NCBI RefSeq assembly: GCF_013426895.1
Contig: NZ_AP023175.1
Span: forward strand, 1,054,001-1,118,000
Reading direction: 5' to 3'
Source: Paraburkholderia largidicola
GTDB taxonomy: Bacteria; Pseudomonadota; Gammaproteobacteria; Burkholderiales; Burkholderiaceae
Length of the DNA: 64,000 bases
The notes beneath the pieces are model-generated. The model ran no database searches, was not told where the DNA came from, and saw only the letters and a list, made by a program, of their open reading frames with translations. Positions 13,032-46,060 of the stretch are shown here, piece by piece (within the stretch, counting starts at the first letter, position 1; each line of letters begins with the position of its first letter). The position numbers and the translations under genes were made by a program.

Positions 13032-13607
13032 TTACGCGCGCGGCTTTCTTCCTGCCTTTTTTGCTCCAATCTTCTTTCTCGCAACGCCATTCATGCCCGC
13101 GGCTTTTGCTCCGGCGACCAGGAACTTGCTACGGTCTTTTTCGCCTGCCAGCCATGCGGGTGCAGGACCACGGCCACTCCACGTCGCACCCGTTTCGGGG
13201 TGGCGATACTTCGCCGGTTGCGGTCCCTTCGGTTGGCCATTGCCCGTGCCGTGCTTCACGGCGACACGCGTGGCAGCCGGAGCGGACGCGCCCGCCACCA
13301 GGTACTTCGAACGGTCTTTGACCGCGGCGATCCATGCAGGCGCACGGCCATGCCCCGTCCATGTTGCACCCGTTTTAGGATCGGAGTATTTGGCTACGCC
13401 CTTGGTTTGCACGCCTGCCGACTTCAGCGAAGGACGGCCACGCTTTTTGCGGCCGAGATGCGCATCGATATCAGCCGTAGTCAGATTGTGCTTTGCCATC
13501 AGTGCGCGAATGCCTTCGAGCGCAGCCGTCGACTTTTTCGACGCAATGGCTTCCGCCTGGGCCTGAAGCTTTTTTATCTTTGCCTGAAGTGCCTCGAGTG
13601 TAGCCAT
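13032..13607 (-). CDS. H-NS-like nucleoid protein with two C-terminal modules
   Basis: A 191-residue H-NS histone-family protein. It starts with a coiled coil (residues 1-40, MATLEALQAKIKKLQAQAEA), then a basic KKRGRPS AT-hook-like stretch. Two copies of the H-NS C-terminal DNA-binding module follow: TGATWTGHGRAPAWI (about residues 77-93) and TGATWSGRGPAPAWL (about 139-155), each followed by KDRSK(Y/F)LVAGA. Usual H-NS proteins of this group have one module and about 100 residues. The ATG at 13607 has a CAGGAG ribosome site. It probably binds AT-rich DNA; the long, less GC-rich region upstream (13608-14030) may be its own target. Confidence 0.85.
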   Translation of the reverse strand: MATLEALQAKIKKLQAQAEAIASKKSTAALEGIRALMAKHNLTTADIDAHLGRKKRGRPSLKSAGVQTKGVAKYSDPKTGATWTGHGRAPAWIAAVKDRSKYLVAGASAPAATRVAVKHGTGNGQPKGPQPAKYRHPETGATWSGRGPAPAWLAGEKDRSKFLVAGAKAAGMNGVARKKIGAKKAGRKPRA

Positions 13608-14037
13608 ATTGAAACTCCTGATTGAAGATATCGGCACTATGCCATGGACCGGTCATATATGGCTAGAGTTCATCTATTACATGAAAAGACACGCGCGCGC
13701 CGTTGTACTGCGTGAGTGACTCCCATTGCTCAAACGAAGCCCCAATTGCCAGGATTTATCTGGTGTACGACAAATGTCAATTGGCTTGCTCGATGTTGAC
13801 TGTCCAATTACTCATGCTATCCATAAGACTTTTAAAATTCCACGTCCGAAAGCGCTGACACACCAATCGGAATAAGCGCGTTGTCCTTCTACTGACAAAA
13901 TCGGCCCTCGAGAGCGTGACTCTCTGTGCAAACTGCCGTCACCGCGATAACTACATCCAATTGCGTACGCAATAAATTCACGTTTACTACTTCTTTTTCC
14001 TAATTTGCCTCAATGCTATGCACGATGCGCGAATGCA
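13608..14037. other. AT-richer intergenic region upstream of the H-NS-like gene
   Basis: About 430 bases clearly lower in GC than their neighbours, with A/T tracts. No gene or RNA is supported. It holds the promoter of the H-NS-like gene and is a plausible autoregulation or silencing site, which is inference from base composition only. Confidence 0.45.
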
Positions 14038-14075
14038 AAAAGGCCGGAGCCTGTCATCACAGGCTCCGGCCTTTT
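14038..14075. terminator. Rho-independent terminator, bidirectional
   Basis: A 17-bp perfect stem (14038-14054 with 14059-14075) closes a CATC loop. The ends of the stem are an A-run and a T-run, so it works in both directions. It terminates the leftward DUF4148 gene. Confidence 0.85.
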
Positions 14076-14135
14076 GGTTCAACTCAGAACTGACTGCAGT
14101 CAGCGAATCGGCATGCGCCGCCCCGAATACAACGA

Positions 14136-14444
14136 TTAATGATGCGAGAACGTGATGCCATTCGCATCGGCACGCACGCCAGCTTGCGACACGCCATTCG
14201 CTGCGCCGCCGACTCCGCTTTGCTGCGTCGACGCCGCCTGTTGCGCGGCCAGACGCGCTTCGGCAGCCTGAATATGCGTGGGATAACTATTGCGATCGTC
14301 GAGCGGGCTGTAACCGGTGTTATGCAATTGCACGAGTTCTTCGCGCACCTGAGCTCGCGTCACAGGTTGATTGCTCTGCGCGAATGCAGAGAGAGGCGCG
14401 CTGACGAGAGCGGCGACGATAACGAATTGACCGAGCGATTTCAT
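14136..14444 (-). CDS. DUF4148 small exported protein
   Basis: A 102-residue exported protein of the DUF4148 family, typical of Burkholderia and relatives. A Sec signal peptide (residues 1-22, cleavage after SAFAQ or nearby) precedes the family motif TRAQVREELVQLHNTGYSP and a second short helix (PTHIQAAEARLAAQQ), then a glycine- and alanine-rich tail. The ATG at 14444 has a GGAGGT ribosome site at good distance. Function is unknown; DUF4148 proteins are usually present in many copies per genome and are periplasmic. Confidence 0.85.
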   Translation of the reverse strand: MKSLGQFVIVAALVSAPLSAFAQSNQPVTRAQVREELVQLHNTGYSPLDDRNSYPTHIQAAEARLAAQQAASTQQSGVGGAANGVSQAGVRADANGITFSHH

Positions 14445-14643
14445 GGCAACTACCTCCGGATCTGTCTGTCGGGTTGCGCGAGAACGGATGTTCTGCAACC
14501 GTTGAACCGAGTGTAGAGGCGTGGCCGCCGCCGATAAATACGTGAGGCTCGAATAGATCTTTCAGGGAATTGCTACAATCCGCACATCATGATTGGGCCG
14601 CCGCGCCCCCCGACGCGACGGCCCGTCATGCCGCGCAAAGCCG

Positions 14644-15009
14644 TCAGCCGGCCAGCTTACGGAACGTTTCGAGCACCGCGTCGCCCTTGAACGGCTTCAC
14701 GATCCAGCCCTTCACGCCTGCCGCCTTGCCGCGCTCCTTCATTGCGGGACTGCTTTCCGTCGTCAGCATGATGATGTTGACGCTCGCATTGGCGAGTTCG
14801 CCGCGAATCTTTTCGGCCATCGTCAGACCGTCCATATTCGGCATGTTCACGTCGCTGACCACCAGACGGATGCCCGGCGATGCCTTCAGCTTCGCGAGAC
14901 CATCCTTGCCGTCCACTGCCGTATCGACATCGAGACCGTTCTTCCTCAGAAAACCCGCGACTTCATCGCGCACCGTGCTCGAATCGTCCACTACCAGAAC
15001 CTTCGCCAT
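14644..15009 (-). CDS. CheY-like single-domain response regulator
   Basis: A 121-residue stand-alone receiver domain. All catalytic positions are present: the DD pair in LVVDDSS, the phosphoacceptor aspartate in VVSDVNMPNMDG, the threonine in MLTTE and the lysine in VKPF. It is the last of four co-directional genes (kinase 16376, MCP-like 15618, CheC/CheX-like 15082), 72 bases after the CheC/CheX-like gene. It is presumably phosphorylated by the CheA-like kinase and dephosphorylated by the CheC/CheX-like protein. Whether it acts on the flagellar motor or on another output is unknown. Confidence 0.9.
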   Translation of the reverse strand: MAKVLVVDDSSTVRDEVAGFLRKNGLDVDTAVDGKDGLAKLKASPGIRLVVSDVNMPNMDGLTMAEKIRGELANASVNIIMLTTESSPAMKERGKAAGVKGWIVKPFKGDAVLETFRKLAG

Positions 15010-15081
15010 TGCTCACCCCGTCGCGCCTTTCATACGGCGCATTGATTGAAAATGTGCTCTCTGCGTGACGCGCAGAAGCAT

Positions 15082-15621
15082 TTAGAAGAGTTCGAGCTCG
15101 CCCGTGCTCTCCTCGGCCTCGTTCACATGCGCGACGAAATCAACGGGCGAACTCGCGCACATGCACAGCGTCGCGCCCAGTTGTACGTTTGCGCCGATGC
15201 TCACGCGAAAAGCCGCGAGATAGCCGGGCTTCAACTCCGTCAGATAAGGCACGCACGCGCCGTTCAGCTGATATGGCGTCGACATCCCGAGATCCGGGAA
15301 GAACTCGACCAATTGCTGATTGATCGCGCCACAACACAGATTGCCGACTTCCATCAATGCTTCCGCCAACGAGCGCTCTTCCGAGTCGCGCAGAAAGTAG
15401 TCGCGGGTTGCCTTGTCATCGTTGAAATGCAGCACGAGCAGAAAACGGAATGCGATCGATGAAATGGTCAGAACCACGATATGGCTCGCAAGCGCGGTAT
15501 TGGCCTGCTGCGAGTCGAGCGCCGTGATTTCACATGCGTCGCTGGAATCGACAGGCAAACGCGTGCGCGCGGAATGCAAAAAGATCCGCTCGATACTGTC
15601 TTTCGCTTGCTGACTGATCAC
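15082..15621 (-). CDS. CheC/CheX-like chemotaxis phosphatase
   Basis: A 179-residue protein resembling CheC/CheX CheY-phosphatases. The key segment is EALMEVGNLCCGAINQQL, with the ExxN pair of the CheC/CheX/FliY active site, and a proline 22 residues after the asparagine (motif spacing in the family is about this). The start overlaps the stop of the MCP-like gene by four bases (ATGA), which shows translational coupling. Its likely substrate is the CheY-like protein encoded downstream. Only one active-site motif is visible, as in CheX-like forms. Assignment rests on motif and context, so activity is an inference. Confidence 0.65.
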   Translation of the reverse strand: MISQQAKDSIERIFLHSARTRLPVDSSDACEITALDSQQANTALASHIVVLTISSIAFRFLLVLHFNDDKATRDYFLRDSEERSLAEALMEVGNLCCGAINQQLVEFFPDLGMSTPYQLNGACVPYLTELKPGYLAAFRVSIGANVQLGATLCMCASSPVDFVAHVNEAEESTGELELF

Positions 15622-16358
15622 GTCGTCGCCTGCTCTAACCGGGATTGAATCTGACCGGCAAGCGCCTCGACGCTCGCCAGCGACGCAGCAATCATCTTGC
15701 CGCCCGCCTGAATGTCCTGAAACGTGGCCGTCGTGATCAGGTCATTGCGGTTCAGGCTGTCGTGATAGCTCTTCGACAGTTCCTGCGAGCGTGCCGCCAG
15801 CGCGCGCACTTCGCTTGCGACGATCGAGAAGCCGCGGCCCGCCGCGCCCGCGCGCGCCGCTTCAATTGATGCATTCAACGACACGATCAGCACGTGACGC
15901 ACGATCGACGAAAGTTCATTGTTCTTCGCGTGCATGTCGTGGTTCTGCGCCATCAGCGAGATCATCTGCTCATGCCAGCGCTCGAACGTGGCGGACAGAT
16001 GCCGCAGACGCCCTGCTTCCGTTGAAAGGCGCGTCGCCTGCTGCAGCCACTCGTCCTTTTGCAGATGCAGCGCATTCAACGCCTCGCGTGCGTCGTCCGC
16101 CGACACCGACTGCTGCGCGAGATCGTCACGTAGCGTATCGACGAGCGCGTGCAGTTCGTGCGCCTGCTGCTCATGCTGCCGGACCTCGGCAGTGTGGCGC
16201 GCCTCGGCCTGCGCGAGTGCAGTGTTCTGCGACGCGAGCGCCGACTGCGTTTGCGTAGCGGCCCGCTTCCTGTACCACCACCGATGCGCGAACAAACCTG
16301 CCAGCGCGCCCCACGCGACGCCCGCCAAGGCCGCCGCAATCACATACTGATCAACCAC
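15618..16358 (-). CDS. Minimal MCP-like signalling protein
   Basis: A 246-residue protein with one N-terminal transmembrane helix (about residues 6-28), a long coiled coil and an MCP signalling hairpin near the C-terminus (LNASIEAARAGAAGRGFSIV, ASEVRALAARSQELSKSY). It has no periplasmic sensor, no HAMP domain, and only a short second half of the hairpin, so it is far smaller than a standard chemoreceptor (about 500 residues). It follows the kinase gene by 17 bases and overlaps the CheC/CheX-like gene by four. It could serve as an intracellular sensor or as scaffold for the kinase. Confidence 0.85.
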   Translation of the reverse strand: MVDQYVIAAALAGVAWGALAGLFAHRWWYRKRAATQTQSALASQNTALAQAEARHTAEVRQHEQQAHELHALVDTLRDDLAQQSVSADDAREALNALHLQKDEWLQQATRLSTEAGRLRHLSATFERWHEQMISLMAQNHDMHAKNNELSSIVRHVLIVSLNASIEAARAGAAGRGFSIVASEVRALAARSQELSKSYHDSLNRNDLITTATFQDIQAGGKMIAASLASVEALAGQIQSRLEQATT

Positions 16359-16375
16359 AGCCTGTCCCCGTCGTG

Positions 16376-18766
16376 CTATTCGAAATGTGCATTCGCCTGA
16401 ATCGAACTCACTGTTTGCGCGGCATCATGCATCGACGTGCCGACGCTATCGACAGCGCAGTTCTCCGGCAGATAGACGATCGTCTGAAACTGGCGGAAGT
16501 CGGCGCCCACCTGATCGTCCGTGAAGCGCAATTCGATGCGTCCGCCTTCGCGACGAATGAAGTCGCGCACCGCATCCATGCCGACGCCGCGGCCCGACAC
16601 TTCCGTCACGTTCTGCGCAGTCGAGAATCCCGCACGGAAAATGAACTCCGCCACGGCTTCGTCGCTCAATTGCGAATCAGGCTGAAGCCAGCCGCGATCG
16701 GCGGCGATGCCGCGAATACGCGACAACGCAAGACCGCGTCCATCGTCGCTCAACGTGATCTGCAATGCGCCTTCGGCGACACCCACTTCGATATCGATGA
16801 CGCCCGCTTCCGGCTTGCCGAGCGCAACTCGCTGTGCGGCAGGCTCGATGCCGTGATCGACGGAATTGCGCAGCAGATGCATGAACACGTTCTTGAGCAT
16901 GCTGCCCGCCTGCGTGCGAACGCGATAACCGTTGTCGTCGATCCGCACGGCGGGCACGGCCTTGCCAAGCTCGGCGGCCAGCGAAGGCAACGAGTGCAGC
17001 ACGCCGGCCAGCGCTTCTTCCACTTTCTCCGTACCGAGCAGGCGCAATGTTCTGCGTACCGAATCGCGCGCTGCCAGCAGATCGAGCATGTCAGCCGGAT
17101 TTGCCGCATCGAGCAGACGCAGGCTTTCCTGAATATGCTCGCGATCCACCATCAGATAACGTTCAGCGCTGCCGACACGGCCCGCCTTGCGTCGGCCGAG
17201 GCTCACTTCGTTGATCGTCGCGTAGTGCTGCAACGCTTCCTTGACGCGCGCCAGTTCGGCAATGAGTTGTTCCTGATCCCATTCGTGCGCCGCCTCCGGT
17301 TGGCGCAGCGCGTCGTAACGCTGCTCGGTTTCGTGCACGATGCTGGTCAGATGCTGGAGGCTATAGGTCCGCGCATTGCCCTTGATCGTATGCATATTGC
17401 GGAACAGTTCGGCGACAGCCGGCTCGCTGACCTGTGCATGCTGACGGATGATGCGCTCGTTCTCGTTGATGAAGCCCGTGGCACTCTCGACGAAATGGTG
17501 GAACTTCTCCTCGCTCACCGAGAGAATTTCGCCGATCATTTCGAGGCGGCGCTTCTGCTCGCCCGCTTCGGCGGCAAGCTGGCGCAATTCGGTCACGTCA
17601 CGCACGCACAGCATCAGGCGCATGACCGTGTCGCTTTCGTCAGTGATTGCGGACCAGCTCAGATCGAGCGTCTTCACGCGACCGTCGGGCATCTTGCGCG
17701 TCAGTTCGTTGACGAGCAGATGCTGGTTGAACTCGAAGTTGATGCTGTCTTCGCCGATACACGCCAGCACGGCTGCTTCGACTTGCGACACGGTATCCGA
17801 ACCCAGGTCGCTGTCGGCGAAGACGAGGTCCATCAGCGCACGCCCGGCGATATCCTTCGTTTCGAAGATTGCTTCCAGATAGGCCGAGTACTCCGAGTGA
17901 ATCATCGCGCCTTCGACAACCGTCAGAATGCCCTGCTGCATGTTCTGCAACATCGCCTGAATATCGGCGGTCTTCTGTTTCAGTTGCGCGGAGCTTTGCT
18001 GGATCTTCTCGATCATGCCGTTGAACGCGACGATCGAATGACCGATTTCATCCATCCGGCCAACGGGCACGCGGCGCGTGAAGTCCTGGCTCGATGCGAT
18101 CTCGCTCATCATCTCCTGCATGCGCGAAAGCGGTCGCGTAATCTGCCGGTATAGCAGCAGGCCAATCGCGATCAGCACCAGAATCGCCGCGCCCGATGCG
18201 CTGCCAATTGCCGTCGTGGTCGTCGCGAGTCCTGTATTCAGTGCGTCGATGGCGTCGTCTTTCTGGCGGTTCTTTTCGATGCGCAGCGTTTCGACGATGC
18301 CTTCGAGTTCGTCGCGGTACTGCGCGACGTTCGCAAACAGATAGGCCTGGGCGAGGTCGTTCTTGCCTTCGGCCTTCATTTTCGCGGTGTCGTTGATCGC
18401 CGCGAAGTAATTGGCGAGACTGTCGCGCGCCTGCGTGACGAGCCCTTCCTGCGCGTGGCTCGCCGCGGCTTTCGCCTGCACGTCGAGTGCTTCGCGCAGC
18501 GATTTCTCTTTCGCCGCGAGTTCTTTTTGCGCCTGCTCGACCATATTCGCGTCGGGCGAATAGACGAGTGTCATCGTCGCGAGTTGCACGTCCTTGACTT
18601 GAGAGACAAGATCGGCGGAAGCCAGCGCGCTCGGCACGACGCCCTGCGTCACCTGCCGGACGTCGGCGGCACTGCCGCGAGTCTGATAGACAGCGTATCC
18701 GCCGATCGCCGATAAGGCGACCAGCATCAACACCACCAGTAAAGTGATGCGGTGACGGATGGTCAT
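16376..18766 (-). CDS. Membrane CheA-like histidine kinase with HAMP, PAS and HPt
   Basis: A 796-residue inner-membrane kinase. Order of parts: helix 1 (residues 5-27), a periplasmic four-helix-bundle sensor of MCP type (about 30-180), helix 2 (about 185-203), HAMP (to about 260), a PAS-like domain (about 265-380), an HPt domain with the phosphohistidine in MHTIKGNAR near residue 459, and a CheA-type ATPase domain. The N-box is LLRNSVDHGIEP near 632, the G-boxes SDDGRGLAL and SGRGVGMDAV near 725. There is no classical DHp domain and no CheW-like (P5) domain. It heads a four-gene operon. The ATG at 18766 is preferred; eight extra codons upstream are possible. Confidence 0.87.
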   Translation of the reverse strand: MTIRHRITLLVVLMLVALSAIGGYAVYQTRGSAADVRQVTQGVVPSALASADLVSQVKDVQLATMTLVYSPDANMVEQAQKELAAKEKSLREALDVQAKAAASHAQEGLVTQARDSLANYFAAINDTAKMKAEGKNDLAQAYLFANVAQYRDELEGIVETLRIEKNRQKDDAIDALNTGLATTTTAIGSASGAAILVLIAIGLLLYRQITRPLSRMQEMMSEIASSQDFTRRVPVGRMDEIGHSIVAFNGMIEKIQQSSAQLKQKTADIQAMLQNMQQGILTVVEGAMIHSEYSAYLEAIFETKDIAGRALMDLVFADSDLGSDTVSQVEAAVLACIGEDSINFEFNQHLLVNELTRKMPDGRVKTLDLSWSAITDESDTVMRLMLCVRDVTELRQLAAEAGEQKRRLEMIGEILSVSEEKFHHFVESATGFINENERIIRQHAQVSEPAVAELFRNMHTIKGNARTYSLQHLTSIVHETEQRYDALRQPEAAHEWDQEQLIAELARVKEALQHYATINEVSLGRRKAGRVGSAERYLMVDREHIQESLRLLDAANPADMLDLLAARDSVRRTLRLLGTEKVEEALAGVLHSLPSLAAELGKAVPAVRIDDNGYRVRTQAGSMLKNVFMHLLRNSVDHGIEPAAQRVALGKPEAGVIDIEVGVAEGALQITLSDDGRGLALSRIRGIAADRGWLQPDSQLSDEAVAEFIFRAGFSTAQNVTEVSGRGVGMDAVRDFIRREGGRIELRFTDDQVGADFRQFQTIVYLPENCAVDSVGTSMHDAAQTVSSIQANAHFE

Positions 18767-29416: not shown

Positions 29417-30100
29417 ATGAAAAAGGGAAGCCGAGCTATCGCGCCCGAGCATAACGAGACCCCGAAAGAATCCTCCGAACCACGGCGCAAATACGATCCC
29501 GAAGAGACGAAGCGCAACATCCTCGAGGTGGCCACGCAGGAGTTTTCGTCGATGGGACTCACGGGTGCGCGGGTCGACGCGATTGCGGAGCGCACCAACA
29601 CCACGAAGCGCATGCTGTACTACTACTTCGGCAGCAAGGAAGGGTTGTACGAGGCCGTGCTCGAGAAAGTGTATGGCGATATTCGCGCGCTCGAGCAGGA
29701 TCTGAAGGTCAGCGATATGAGCCCTGTTGACGGGCTGCGTAGTCTCGTTGAGTTTACGTTTGACTATCATGATAAACATCGCGATTTCGTGCGACTCGTG
29801 ACGATCGAGAATATTCACGGCGCTAAATATATCGAGCAGGTCAAGACCTTTAAGAATCGTAATGCGACTGTCATTCACACGATTGAAGATCTGCTTGCGA
29901 GAGGCGTTGCTTCAGGGGATTTTCGTGACGATATCGATCCGATTGATCTGCATCTGTTGATCAGTTCGTTGTGCTTTCATCGGATTGCCAATCGGCATAC
30001 GTTTGGGAATGCGTTTGGGCGGGACCCTTCTCATTCAAGGCTCAGGGCGCGGCATCGCGCGATGATTGTTGATGCTACGTTGAGGTTTGTTAAGCGGTAG
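29417..30100 (+). CDS. TetR/AcrR-family regulator
   Basis: A 227-residue TetR regulator. The helix-turn-helix is at about residues 25-75 (KRNILEVATQEFSSMGLTGA, then RVDAIAERTNTTKRMLYYYF and GSKEGLYEAVLEKVY), and the C-terminal ligand-binding domain shows HRDFVRLVTIENIHGAKYIE. It may control the FAD oxidase gene upstream. Odd feature: codon use drifts along the gene. The first half prefers C-ending codons like its neighbours, while the last third is full of GTT, GAT, CAT, TTT and TTG codons, up to the repeat element that begins 23 bases after the stop. Confidence 0.88.
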   Translation: MKKGSRAIAPEHNETPKESSEPRRKYDPEETKRNILEVATQEFSSMGLTGARVDAIAERTNTTKRMLYYYFGSKEGLYEAVLEKVYGDIRALEQDLKVSDMSPVDGLRSLVEFTFDYHDKHRDFVRLVTIENIHGAKYIEQVKTFKNRNATVIHTIEDLLARGVASGDFRDDIDPIDLHLLISSLCFHRIANRHTFGNAFGRDPSHSRLRARHRAMIVDATLRFVKR

Positions 30101-30123
30101 CGTTCTTGCCTGCGGCCCGGTTT

Positions 30124-30817
30124 GGGTTTGCTTGTGCTTTGCGGTGGCATCCGCGTGATGTTATTGGTTCGCAAGCGTTGCCCCTGTGCGGGGCAGCACC
30201 TACTTTTCTTTGCCGCCGCAAAGAAAAGTAGGCAAAAGAAAGCGGCTCACACCGCCAATCCTTGTTCCTGCCTGAGGGCCCCCAAAGGTTCTTACGCTTC
30301 ACACGGCAACGCGCCAGTTCGCGTCCGTTGCCAACGTTCTCTCTGTACGCCTCACCCGCTTCCTGTTCCCGCGTTACAGCACGCCGTGCCAGATAGTCCT
30401 CCGCCGCCCAGTGGCAAACTGTGTGTAGGCTTTCGCGCCATACGCGCATCACTCCGGACTGGGTAGCAAGATTGGTGTTTCTGGTAAGAGCACTAACCTA
30501 TGCGGTGCGACAACCTGCACACAGTTTGCCACCTGGGCGGCATATACCATTCGCTGACGCTGGCCTGAGCACGGGTATTCGAAGTGGGTGAAGCGTTTAT
30601 TCGAAGCGTTGGCAACGAGCACCAACCAGGGCACTGCCGAGTGAAGCGTGGGGACGTTGGGGGCCCGTGGATAGAAACAAGTGCTGGCGGTGTTAGCCGC
30701 TTTCTTTTGCCTACTTTTCTTTGCGGCGGCAAAGAAAAGTAGGTGCCGCCCCGCACAGGGGCAACGCTCGAAGCAAGCTAACAAATCGCGGATGCCACCG
30801 CAAACCAAAGCAAACCC
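30124..30817. repeat. 694-bp imperfect palindromic element, copy A
   Basis: The left end (from 30124) and the right end (to 30817) are reverse complements over about 130 bases. This includes two copies of a 30-base hairpin-forming palindrome (TACTTTTCTTTGC, CGCC, then GCAAAGAAAAGTA) at 30201-30230 and 30711-30740. Further inside, the arm with GAGGGCCCCCAA pairs with TTGGGGGCCCGTGG, CCGTTGCCAACG pairs with CGTTGGCAACGAG, and CCGCCCAGTGGCAAACTGTG pairs with CACAGTTTGCCACCTGGGCGG. So nearly the whole unit can fold back. The 44293-44986 copy has the same length and order. Reading frames inside it are by-products of the palindrome. Confidence 0.85.
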
Positions 30818-30838
30818 ACCAGCGTCGCAGACAACCCA

Positions 30839-30905
30839 CAAGTAGGTGCCGCCCCGCACAGGGGCAACACTTGCGAACCAGAAGCAAACCGCGGATGCAG
30901 CGCAA
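30839..30905. repeat. Partial third copy of the element's right arm
   Basis: This stretch repeats AGTAGGTGCCGCCCCGCACA and the following GGGGCAAC, then GAACCAG and a GCGGATG..GC..CAAA pattern seen at the right end of copy A (30740-30805). It lacks the rest of the element. It looks like a truncated or duplicated arm. Confidence 0.75.
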
Positions 30906-31091
30906 AAGCCAAAAAACCAAACCGCTTGCCCAACACCCACCTCACCACAATCCTGGTCTTTGGCGTTTAACTACATTCATACCATCCAGTTAGTACTATT
31001 CGGATATTAAAAAAATACCCACCCAAACCGCCGGCGGCAAAAGAACCCCCATCGACTGCCTGCAAAAAATCAGGCACACCGCTTGCACCGA

Positions 31092-43529: not shown

Positions 43530-44261
43530 ATGCTGAAAACTGAACGTCTGCGCATGCTCGCCGATGCGCTGGCCAAACAGAGCGTGATGCGCCTGCGCGA
43601 CGCGGCGACGTTACTGGGCGTATCGGAGATGACGGTACGCCGGGACATTGCTGCGAGCCCGGGGCATTTTACGTATCTGGGCGGTTATATCGTCAGCGCG
43701 ACGGACGTGCCGAACACGGCTGGCTATTCGCTGGAGCAGGAAAAGGACCATTTCGCGCAGGCCAAGGCGGAGGCATCGGCTGTGGCGGCGAAGCTGATCG
43801 TGAACAACGAGACGCTATTCATCGACTGCGGGACGACGCTCACTACGCTCGCGCGGCTGATTCCCAACGATCTGCATGTGACGATTGTCTGCTATTCGCT
43901 GAATGTAGCGGAGATTTTGCGGCGCAAGCCTAATGTGCGGATGATTCTTCTGGGCGGTGTATATGTGCCGTCGTCGGATTCGTTTTCGGGCGAGGAAAGC
44001 ATCGAGGTGCTTCGGCGCATGGGGATCAACAAGGCGTTTATTTCCGCCGGCGGCGTTGATGATGCGCACGGTGTGACGTGCTGGAATTTTCATGAAGTCG
44101 CGCTTAAACAGGCCGCGATGGCGGCGGCTGTCGAGAGTCATCTCGTGGTTGATAGCAGCAAGTTTGGTGTTGTTAAGGCGGTTCGGTTCTCGAAGGTCGA
44201 GGAGTTTGCTTCGATCATTACCGAGAAGGGGCAGGTGGTTGCCGCGAAGCGGAAGGGTTAG
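43530..44261 (+). CDS. DeoR/GlpR-family transcriptional regulator
   Basis: A 243-residue DeoR-family repressor. The helix-turn-helix is near the start (LRMLADALAKQSVMRLRDAA and VSEMTVRRDIAASPG). The sugar-phosphate-sensing domain follows, with LFIDCGTTLTTLARLIPNDL, RRKPNVRMILLGGVYVP and the VVDSSKFGVVKAVRFS segment near the end. It faces the sugar operon across palindromic element B and is the natural candidate to repress it, with deoxyribose phosphate or a similar sugar phosphate as inducer. The last third of the gene has unusual GTT, TTT and TTG codons, which begin well before the element. The promoter is the extended -10 at 43452. Confidence 0.88.
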   Translation: MLKTERLRMLADALAKQSVMRLRDAATLLGVSEMTVRRDIAASPGHFTYLGGYIVSATDVPNTAGYSLEQEKDHFAQAKAEASAVAAKLIVNNETLFIDCGTTLTTLARLIPNDLHVTIVCYSLNVAEILRRKPNVRMILLGGVYVPSSDSFSGEESIEVLRRMGINKAFISAGGVDDAHGVTCWNFHEVALKQAAMAAAVESHLVVDSSKFGVVKAVRFSKVEEFASIITEKGQVVAAKRKG

Positions 44262-44292
44262 GTTTTTTGTCTGTCTTGCGATGCTCGGGTAT

Positions 44293-44986
44293 TTTGCTTT
44301 TGCTTTGGCTTTGCGCTGGCGTCCGCGTGATGTTATTGGTTTGCTAGCGTTGCCCCTGTGCGGGGCGGCACCTACTTTTCTTTGCCGCCGCAAAGAAAAG
44401 TAGGCAAAAGAAAGCGGCTCACACCGCCAGTTCTTGTATTTGCCTGAGGGCCCCCAACGGTTCTTACGCTTCACACGGCAACGCACCTGTTCGCGTTCGT
44501 TGCCAACGTTCTCTCTGTACGCCTCACCCGCTTCGCGCGCCCGCATTACCGAATGCCGCGCCAGATAGTCCACCGCCGCCCAGGTGGCAAACAGTGTGTA
44601 GGCCAAAGTACTCCACACGCCTCACTTCGGACCGATAGCGCATGCGCTCCACCTGTAAGAGCGCTAACTTCTACGTCGCGACAACCTGCACACAGTTTGC
44701 CACCTGGGCGGCACATACCATTCGCTGCCGTCTGCCGTTGTATGGGTGCCTGAAGCGGGTGATGCGATCATTCGAAGCGTTGGCAACGAGCACTAACCAG
44801 GGCACTGCCGTGTGAAGGATGGGGACGTTGGGGGCCCGTGGATAGGAACAAGCACTGGCGGTGTGAGCCGCTTTCTTTTGCCTACTTTTCTTTGCGGCGG
44901 CAAAGAAAAGTAGGTGCCGCCCCGCACAGGGGCGACGCTTGCAGACCAATAACATCACGCGGACGCCGGCGCAAAACAAAAGCAAA
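44293..44986. repeat. 694-bp imperfect palindromic element, copy B
   Basis: Same architecture as copy A (30124-30817): ends that are reverse complements over about 130 bases, two hairpin palindromes (TACTTTTCTTTGC, CGCC, GCAAAGAAAAGTA) at about 44372-44401 and 44882-44911, and paired inner arms. The B arms contain CCGCCCAGGTGGCAAACAG with GTTTGCCACCTGGGCGG, and CCAACGGTTC with the matching right arm. Similarity between A and B is high in the arms and lower in the centre. It fills the gap between the DeoR gene and the end of a convergent permease gene. Flanking homology extends to about 45010 (CAGCGTCGCA and ACAAC). Confidence 0.85.
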
Positions 44987-45013
44987 CCACCCCAGCGTCG
45001 CAAACAACAACCA

Positions 45014-46060
45014 CTAACCCTTCCGCTGAAGAGCAAACAACGTCCCAGCAATCAAAATAAACGCCCCGATAATAACCTTCTGCCAGGTACTCGGCACCCC
45101 AACAAGAATAAGCACGCTATTAATGAGCGTAACGAGCACGACCCCAAGCAAAGTACCAACAACAGTCCCCGTCCCACCAGTAATCCGGGCCCCGCCCAGA
45201 ATCACCGCAGCGATCACATCGAGTTCAGTGCCGACAAGATCAAAAGGATTGGCCAACCGGTTATTCGACACATGCAGGATGCCTGCAATTCCCGCCAGCA
45301 TCCCCGTATAACCAAACACAAAAAGATGAATAGCCCGCAGGTTATAACCAAGCCGCTCGGCAATAGCAAGCGAACCACCCATGGCATAAACCCCACGCCC
45401 CATCATCGTGCGATTCAGCAGCCACCACGTGACAACAGATGCAATCACAAGCGCCAACACAGAAGCCGGCAACACCGCCCTTAACCCATCGGCAGTGTGA
45501 TAAAAGAACAGCGGAATACGCCCAAAATGATCCATGCTGTGCGGAATGTTCATAAAGAACGTCGTGCCGATAAACGTCAGCAAAATCCCGCGATACAAGT
45601 ACTGCGTACCAATCGTCACGATCAGCGAAGGCGCCTTCAGCCGGTGCACCAGCACACCATTGATCACCCCAAGCACAATGCCGCCCAGCGCGCCAACGAC
45701 AAGAATCAACGCAAACGGCGCGTCCGGCCACCACGCAAACACAGCCTTGGTAATCGCATACATGGTGAGCGCGCCGATCGCCGTGAACGACACATCGATA
45801 CCACCCGACGCGAGCACCACGAGCGTCCCAAGCGCGAACAGCGACATCGTCGTCGCCGAATGCAGCAGATCGAACAGCGTCGCAAGCTGAAAGAAGCGCG
45901 GATTGATCGCACCGACGATCACACACGTCACGACGATCAGCGCCGTCGTGAACCACTCCGGGTTGCGCGAGAACTTCGCGCGCCACGTGGGCGGCTTCAC
46001 CTCGGGCGCGATTTCGACGACGTTGGGGGTAGTCACAGTCCGGTCCATGATAGACGACAT
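45014..46060 (-). CDS. Sugar ABC transporter permease, second of the pair
   Basis: A 348-residue permease of the RbsC/LsrD-like family. After a cytoplasmic start (about 30 residues) come 9-10 helices, with VVLASGGIDVSFTAIGALTM and the ATPase loop AMGGSLAIAERLGYNLRAIH, then VILGGARITGGTGTVVGTLL. It is the last of eight co-directional genes and follows the ATPase gene by one base. Its last third uses many GTT, ATT, CTT codons, quite unlike its first third. The operon has a second permease (48787), so the transporter probably has a heterodimeric channel. Confidence 0.87.
   Translation of the reverse strand: MSSIMDRTVTTPNVVEIAPEVKPPTWRAKFSRNPEWFTTALIVVTCVIVGAINPRFFQLATLFDLLHSATTMSLFALGTLVVLASGGIDVSFTAIGALTMYAITKAVFAWWPDAPFALILVVGALGGIVLGVINGVLVHRLKAPSLIVTIGTQYLYRGILLTFIGTTFFMNIPHSMDHFGRIPLFFYHTADGLRAVLPASVLALVIASVVTWWLLNRTMMGRGVYAMGGSLAIAERLGYNLRAIHLFVFGYTGMLAGIAGILHVSNNRLANPFDLVGTELDVIAAVILGGARITGGTGTVVGTLLGVVLVTLINSVLILVGVPSTWQKVIIGAFILIAGTLFALQRKG

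Follow-up and report, generated by a model that had tools for sequence, protein, structure and literature searches.

H-type pseudoknots in which loop L1 lies in the major groove of stem S2 and forms U.A-U and C+.G-C triples are found in telomerase RNA and in the SAM-II and preQ1-II RNAs. To our knowledge, such triple-helix pseudoknots are rare, and most known cases are single-copy components of a riboswitch or of telomerase. A separate body of work concerns REP/REPIN, ERIC and similar repeats, which are dispersed, palindromic and intergenic, and often lie near gene 3' ends.

Here we describe a repeat that is present in two copies (A and B) in a 64,000-nucleotide stretch of the Paraburkholderia largidicola genome (hereafter, the window, that is, the whole stretch of DNA analysed). 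The element shares with REP/REPIN and ERIC its dispersed, palindromic and intergenic character and its frequent placement at gene 3' ends, but differs from them in its length of about 700 bp and in its conserved part, which is a pseudoknot motif in each arm. This motif would work like the pseudoknots of telomerase RNA, SAM-II and preQ1-II, with the triples counted from the junction; no homology is claimed and, unlike these RNAs, the element is a high-copy intergenic repeat that occurs in inverted pairs. In the literature searched, we found no description of the element, its pseudoknot or the pairing of its units.

Two copies of a long inverted repeat in the window

The inverted arms of copy A span 30174-30285 and 30657-30768 (112 nt, 90%), and those of copy B span 44299-44459 and 44826-44986 (161 nt, 91%). 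The two copies align in ungapped blocks of 291 nt at 90% and 300 nt at 87%, and are 85% identical as a whole (Table 1). Copy A folds as a single long hairpin of -469.6 kcal/mol, compared to a mean of -258 for 20 shuffled sequences (z -32.2), and the opposite strand folds with a z of -28.5; the two arms together yield -470 kcal/mol, and the halves alone -130 and -137 kcal/mol. The palindrome of 694 bp reported in the first-pass annotation is real as a fold but somewhat too short as a unit, its limits being placed at approximately 30105 and 30839 (judged by eye on a 46-copy consensus). Likewise, the perfect 30-base hairpins described there are present but are actually 34-nt palindromes with a 4-nt centre, located at 30199-30232 and 30710-30743 in copy A.

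Table 1. Features of the two window copies and of the adjoining genes
Feature	Position	Strand	Basis or remark
Copy A, whole element including degenerate ends	30105..30839	.	ends by eye
Copy A left arm, outward motif	30199..30246	-	strict scan
Copy A left arm, parts	P1 30242-30246, L1 30234-30241, S2a 30220-30232, S1b 30215-30219, S2b 30199-30211	-	
Copy A left arm, hairpin H1	30180..30194	-	directly outside pseudoknot
Copy A right arm, outward motif	30696..30743	+	strict scan
Copy A right arm, parts	P1 30696-30700, L1 30701-30708, S2a 30710-30722, S1b 30723-30727, S2b 30731-30743	+	
Copy A right arm, hairpin H1	30748..30762	+	
Additional outer-end repeat adjoining copy A	30840..30913	.	family D3, repeat comparison
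Copy B, whole element	44263..45010	.	limits placed by eye; fills gap between two convergent genes
Copy B left arm, outward motif	44371..44418	-	strict scan
Copy B left arm, parts	P1 44414-44418, L1 44406-44413, S2a 44392-44404, S1b 44387-44391, S2b 44371-44383; H1 44352-44366	-	
Copy B right arm, outward motif	44867..44914	+	strict scan
Copy B right arm, parts	P1 44867-44871, L1 44872-44879, S2a 44881-44893, S1b 44894-44898, S2b 44902-44914; H1 44919-44933	+	
Rfam RF02421 (Bp1_684) match, copy B right arm outer end	44904..45001	+	50.4 bits, cut-off 44
TetR-type regulator gene, 3' end adjoins copy A	29417..30100	+	Pfam
DeoR-type regulator gene, stop codon adjoins copy B	43530..44261	+	Pfam
Transport permease gene (BPD_transp_2), stop codon adjoins copy B	45014..46060	-	Pfam

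None of the five scanned ORFs that overlie the elements has a Pfam match, and the spacing between the two hairpins varies from 506 to 514 across 45 copies, with all three phases represented; hence the element contains no gene, as originally annotated, and a coding origin of the repeat is ruled out. An insertion sequence or an intact protein gene had been named as the finding that would speak against the annotation; neither was detected for the element, in the sense of an intact frame with a known domain.

If up to 3 mismatches are allowed, the 34-nt hairpin has 342 matches in the host genome (9.47 Mb, 5 contigs), compared to 0 for the reversed control pattern. In the fetched copies these matches are mostly paired, 506-514 bp apart, from which we infer that the genome carries about 170 elements. 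The initial view of a defined, dispersed element is therefore borne out, with a copy number in the genome far above two. Among the 50 fetched copies, 46 were aligned (L007, with one hairpin, and L031-L033, with insertions, were left out), with a mean pairwise identity of 80%. Conservation is concentrated in two 72-nt arm blocks, where 93% and 97% of the columns are invariant, compared to 17-23% in the other five measured regions. Between species, the hairpin, loop and flank of an arm change together, and both arms of one copy can differ in type. In some copies, the outer end repeats are tandemly multiplied (near the outer ends of L082, L086 and L087, and next to copy A in the window).

Arm complementarity within one copy amounts to 73% over the whole consensus, and there is no covariation between the arms: across the 46 copies, 11132 cells are Watson-Crick pairs, compared to 11172 expected under column independence. 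Given this lack of compensatory change, we rejected the long palindrome, whether as double-stranded RNA or as a cruciform, as the selected structure; the self-pairing of the whole unit, noted in the first-pass annotation, is not supported as the conserved property.

A predicted triple-helix pseudoknot in each arm

Read outward, every arm contains a 48-nt motif with the order P1 - L1 - S2a - S1b - L3 - S2b, in which S2 is the hairpin and S1 is formed by P1 and the first five loop bases, an arrangement that fits an H-type pseudoknot. The U/C-rich L1 (UUUCUUUU and variants) matches the purine strand of S2 in parallel, position for position, with U on A and C on G, and its register from the junction fits U.A-U and C+.G-C triples. 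All four window arms fit the motif fully, each with 5 S1 pairs, 13 S2 pairs and 8 triples. Of 186 arm sequences, 182 could be parsed (4 were left unparsed), and 16 of the 19 arm types fit the triples without exception, the types L154, L159 and L167, all from the genus, having one exception each. S1 is complete in 15 of the 19 types, in two of them with a U-G pair, and its sequences include GCCGC/GCGGC, GCGGC/GCCGC, GCTGC/GCAGC and TCGCC/GGCGA, as well as TGGCC/GGCCA, CGTGC/GCACG and TGTGC/GCACA; in our judgement, this variety makes an accidental fit very unlikely. A strict scan retrieved 47 motifs from 142 kb of loci and 0 from 710 kb of Markov-shuffled sequence, a comparison that measures chance only because the scan demands the motif by design. 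We consider it highly probable, on the strength of sequence comparison, that each arm fits an H-type pseudoknot with a major-groove triple helix as its predicted fold, a pattern that is absent from the first-pass annotation.

Compensatory changes in the stems and in the third strand were assessed in three alignments against shuffles that keep relatedness, related rows not being independent. In the genus alignment (A1; 80 of 89 arm references), 98.6% of the S1 and S2 cells are paired, compared to 92.0% after shuffling, with 67 double-changed cells compared to 21.3 and a covariation of 0.193 compared to 0.074 (in each case, 0 of 500 shuffles as high), and slid controls pair in 33-56%. A set of 36 sequences, of which 23 belong to other genera and 22 to other families within the order, gave 97.5% paired cells compared to 76.6%, 73 double changes compared to 23 and a covariation of 0.547 compared to 0.178 (again 0/500), with slid S1 and S2 controls at 44-70%. 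The triples in this set are complete (144 of 144 cells), with 29 double changes compared to 9.0 and a covariation of 0.564 compared to 0.279 (0/500), and slid controls reach at most 81%.

The widest set (A4) consists of 59 hits of the model R2, the structure line of which holds five S2 pairs only and encodes neither S1 nor the triples; it overlaps the R2 training set in one place (G770:C1:486122-486211), and a few rows are near-identical. Here, S1 and S2 are paired in 92.7% of the cells, compared to 79.6%, with 70 double changes compared to 16.5 (0/500), and the triples fit in 97.8% compared to 89.2% (95.7% when U.G is excluded), with 26 double changes compared to 5.8 (0/500). The covariation scores of this set, for stems and triples alike, likewise exceeded those of every one of the 500 shuffles. 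At least six consecutive triples, starting from the junction, are present in 51 of the 59 rows and fewer in the remaining 8; one slid triple control pairs in 95.0% of the cells, without double changes. The counts of pair types did not exceed the shuffles in the wider alignments (408, 500, 334 and 473 of 500 as high), nor did the pair counts for the triples (167 and 256 of 500). In short-type rows, one gap was moved by a single fixed rule, for the comparison of the terminator hairpin and of the L1/S2 register. Thus, the two predicted interlocked stems covary in all three alignments, and the sequence of L1 follows the purine strand of S2 in parallel, in register from the junction, with the exceptions given above. 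A structured RNA, one of the options listed in the first-pass annotation, is accordingly probable, given the covariation of the S1 and S2 pairs and of the triples.

On the outward strand, the ratios of G-U to A-C cells are 11:3, 1:2 and 9:3 in the three alignments (21 compared to 8 in total), which favours an outward RNA, although these cells are inherited and the numbers small. The hairpins upstream of the motif in L211, L214 and L217 carry AGGGATGT-type loops, which resemble the CsrA binding consensus and could mean CsrA/RsmA binding.

Distribution of the motif and relationship to known RNA families

Of 398 genomes from the family, 28 match the 34-nt pattern, and every one of them belongs to the genus of the host. 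This restriction was dismissed as an artefact of the pattern, given that a looser pattern and the models R1 and R2 reach further. Within the genus, 94 of the 144 genomes carry the looser pattern (control, 0), so that the further copies anticipated in related genomes do exist; the copy number is very uneven, from 0 to 455 pattern matches on both strands across the 144 genomes, and the element types differ between species. At E <= 1e-3, R1 detects the motif in 84 of the 300 genomes from the order, which represent 47 of 134 genera; R2, at E <= 1e-4, detects it in 50 of the 398 genomes from the phylum, which represent 36 of 212 genera. All these E-values are rough. Of the R2-positive genomes, 18 belong to the order and 24 to other orders within its class, and the remaining 8 come from a single family in a different class. 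Among named records, 61 stretches contain the exact 34-nt core; they include stretches from Polaromonas, Silvimonas, Aggregatibacter, Actinobacillus, Mannheimia and Rodentibacter, as well as from a genome of the Alteromonadales and a metagenome bin that carries the label Bacteroidales. Among 20 plasmid and chromid records with a match, the best place lies outside any listed feature in 19 and one record is unannotated, the gene table being incomplete.

The outward arrangement extends beyond the genus: among 109 loci from other genera, strict motifs that neighbour each other within 1.2 kb point outward in 18 cases and inward in 1, and such pairs occur in unrelated families. The outward pairs are separated by 300-543 bp, except for one gap that measures 1107. 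Locus L334 duplicates the place of L208. Several other configurations were observed as well. One species has same-strand arm doublets about 254 bp apart (G020:C6 521848-522726, C8 268935-270066 and C11 278541-278881). In other families, more widely spaced motif pairs enclose accessory-looking ORFs (L184 1108-4141, L186, L189, L191, L324, L325 and L329); the content of the genes between these wider pairs is mixed, and no rule emerged. In Pasteurellaceae, the centres of the elements L228, L230, L274 and L277, between both units, contain motifs that resemble uptake signal sequences.

Three Rfam families come close to the element. Bp1_684, a Burkholderia sRNA, matches the outer end of an arm on the same outward strand, passing the cut-off in one of the four window arms and scoring below it in other element copies. 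Its match starts inside S2b and therefore lacks P1, L1 and S2a, and the family models one transcript, whereas the element described here is a paired repeat. TwoAYGGAY (RF01731), which is entered in a 2010 table as a probable RNA that is not cis-regulatory (PMC2864571), matches immediately upstream of the motif, on the outward strand, in some other gammaproteobacterial genomes. At E <= 0.05 there are 16 matches in 14 distinct places, in 11 of 19 scanned loci; 4 of the 16 (3 places) reach the cut-off, and for 6 matches, in 4 places, relaxed limits allow the motif to be parsed 54-59 nt downstream. The full-length match shown stops at P1 and the start of L1. There is no TwoAYGGAY match in the window or in 11 loci that mostly come from Paraburkholderia relatives, and nothing over the cut-off in 15 Pasteurellaceae loci. 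In 3 of these 15, AaHKsRNA22 matches, at differing positions and with scores near the cut-off. The Bp1_684 and TwoAYGGAY alignments that we viewed do not include the pseudoknot.

We tentatively suggest, at somewhat less than even odds, that all these units belong to one homologous, so far unrecognised RNA class across Pseudomonadota, consisting of inverted outward pairs of triple-helix pseudoknots, of which TwoAYGGAY, Bp1_684 and perhaps AaHKsRNA22 would be fragments, and which would embody a new mechanism, either a two-way transcript boundary or RNA-folded mobile ends. Such a class would provide many unannotated beta- and gammaproteobacterial intergenic repeats with a definite structure, unite Rfam entries that now stand apart and make the function of such 3'-end repeats testable. 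In the element described here, the pattern of a triple-helix pseudoknot recurs hundreds of times within a genome, as back-to-back pairs, in soil bacteria, and natural compensatory variants are at hand for tests.

Placement at gene ends and a possible role as a transcript boundary

In the host genome, the 41 scored copies (2 skipped and 4 incomplete ones were left out) lie between convergent genes in 16 cases, tandem genes in 23 and divergent genes in 2, compared to 31 convergent, 131 tandem and 32 divergent among the background adjacent gene pairs of the same stretches. A hairpin is found within 131 nt of 24 of 55 gene 3' ends but of only 1 of 27 5' ends, distances that are rough because the gene caller missed the TetR gene; the placement at 3' ends that the first-pass annotation had proposed to examine is thus supported. 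In copy B and most of the related copies compared, a T-run and a GTCTGCGACG-like sequence follow a few bases past the stop codon, and the far end of copy B has the same arrangement beside the next stop codon. At the site of copy A, 10 of 13 readable relatives that lack the element have an A-run, a hairpin and a T-run after the TetR gene and 3 do not (the hairpin being defined as a perfect stem of at least 12 bp; 11 further rows gave no information). Most of these 10 hairpins precede a transporter gene; in G399 (L116), that gene comes after the element. Simple ORF calls in Pasteurellaceae place 8 of 9 pairs in tandem intervals and 1 in a divergent region, and solo units occur in several contexts, divergent regions included; the 3' placement is therefore not universal.

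Our preferred reading, to which we assign a probability of roughly 55%, is that the element is an outward-facing pair of RNA units, the predicted pseudoknots of which form the 3' boundary of the adjacent genes; the role as such, an RNA 3' boundary at gene ends, comes slightly below an even chance. The outward strand would be transcribed, in transcripts that enter or start in the element, and each unit would act as RNA. A very stable knot at the far end of the transcript would mark the 3' boundary of the adjacent gene or genes, slowing 3'-5' exonucleases, RNA polymerase or both, and, with a boundary of this kind at each outward unit, the pair would serve both directions. Read-through RNA that includes both arms is predicted to zip into a long duplex, an RNase III substrate, and RNA that ends or starts within the element is predicted to keep the knot. 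The strongest objection to this role is that a transcript of both arms could form the far more stable duplex. Furthermore, hundreds of copies per genome exceed what a boundary role needs. No sigma-70-type promoter-like sites were detected inside the two window elements.

A simpler explanation, that of a plain bidirectional intrinsic terminator or a REP-like 3' stem-loop with the triple-helix fit as a by-product, appears improbable to us. It accounts for the position of the element at gene ends and for the terminator-type hairpins in relatives at the site of copy A, and two scanned stretches contain 10 and 8 terminator-like sites, compared to 1.8 and 1.6 expected. However, the arm does not retain a GC hairpin directly before a U-tract, since a G faces another G in 17 of the 40 unique rows; the terminator-like hairpin is lost where its 3' half, P1, changes, the pairing of P1 with the loop being kept. 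The T-runs at the element ends fall outside the hairpins, and simple stem-loops need no L1 that follows S2. The bidirectional terminator of the first-pass annotation therefore survives with respect to position but not with respect to the arm hairpin.

Site history, probable recombination and possible mobility

Same-site copies in three species, with flanks that are 90-96% identical, are no more alike than copies within a genome (identity of 0.823, n=11, compared to 0.818, n=106). At 3 of 7 sites, the host genome and G384 have the centre in opposite orientation. The element is present in 55 of the 58 two-flank comparisons across three related species, in which some sites enter from either side; the remaining three concern a site that is disrupted by an insertion and a site that is empty in the host genome, viewed from two species. 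Eight further comparisons gave no resolution, seven with a single flank and one with the right flank elsewhere. Together, we take the similarity values and the occupancy to reflect old sites and recombination between copies, which apparently keeps the copies alike and also flips the centre, and not new insertions.

That sites are kept but their content is not would also be compatible with a structure at the DNA level, in which H-DNA or cruciforms would arise from mirror pyrimidine tracts and palindromes, be cleaved by nucleases of the SbcCD type and undergo repair from other copies, and the tracts Y2 and Y1 are indeed mirror repeats. We regard this explanation, too, as improbable: S1 and S2 covary within one strand, which requires a folded single strand, the arms do not covary with each other, and G-U exceeds A-C on the outward strand.

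More serious, albeit still unlikely, is the possibility that the element is a non-autonomous mobile element, with the paired outward pseudoknots as ends that a trans-acting enzyme would recognise once folded, whether as RNA or as single-stranded DNA; gene 3' ends would then be places where an insertion is tolerated. Like a MITE, the element has terminal inverted repeats and no gene, and its free centre between inverted ends, the uneven copy number, the species-specific differences in type, the pairs in unrelated families and the one site that is filled in two species and empty in the third all point in this direction. Against this stand the nearly complete occupancy of the compared sites, the absence of a clean target duplication at the one empty site, which is diverged, and the conservation of the arms in the aligned resident copies rather than just in active ones; furthermore, no enzyme gene that bears these ends was found. 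The miniature mobile element suggested in the first-pass annotation thus retains its terminal repeats as support and is the less probable reading.

Two related readings were rejected. The genome has two PF01797 (Y1_Tnp-type) matches, one of them over the cut-off, and neither gene has the element at its flanks, which eliminates a REPIN/RAYT system. Three long copies with a hairpin spacing of about 1613 are not an autonomous parent: the additional length is a 1099-bp IS30-type insertion, near-identical in the three cases (L031 2220-3318, L032 2726-3824 and L033 2705-3803, all in the host genome), that encodes a 338-aa transposase with HTH_38 and rve domains. All three insertions are at the same point of an arm, between the L1 linker and S2, with an apparent 3-bp duplication (by eye), and the G384 orthologue of the first interrupted copy (L031) lacks the insertion. 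Other insertions lie in, or replace, the centres of elements in L284 (approximately 13200-16500) and in L076 (11220-13147, G384), one of them containing a 425-aa ORF that by eye appears transposase-like.
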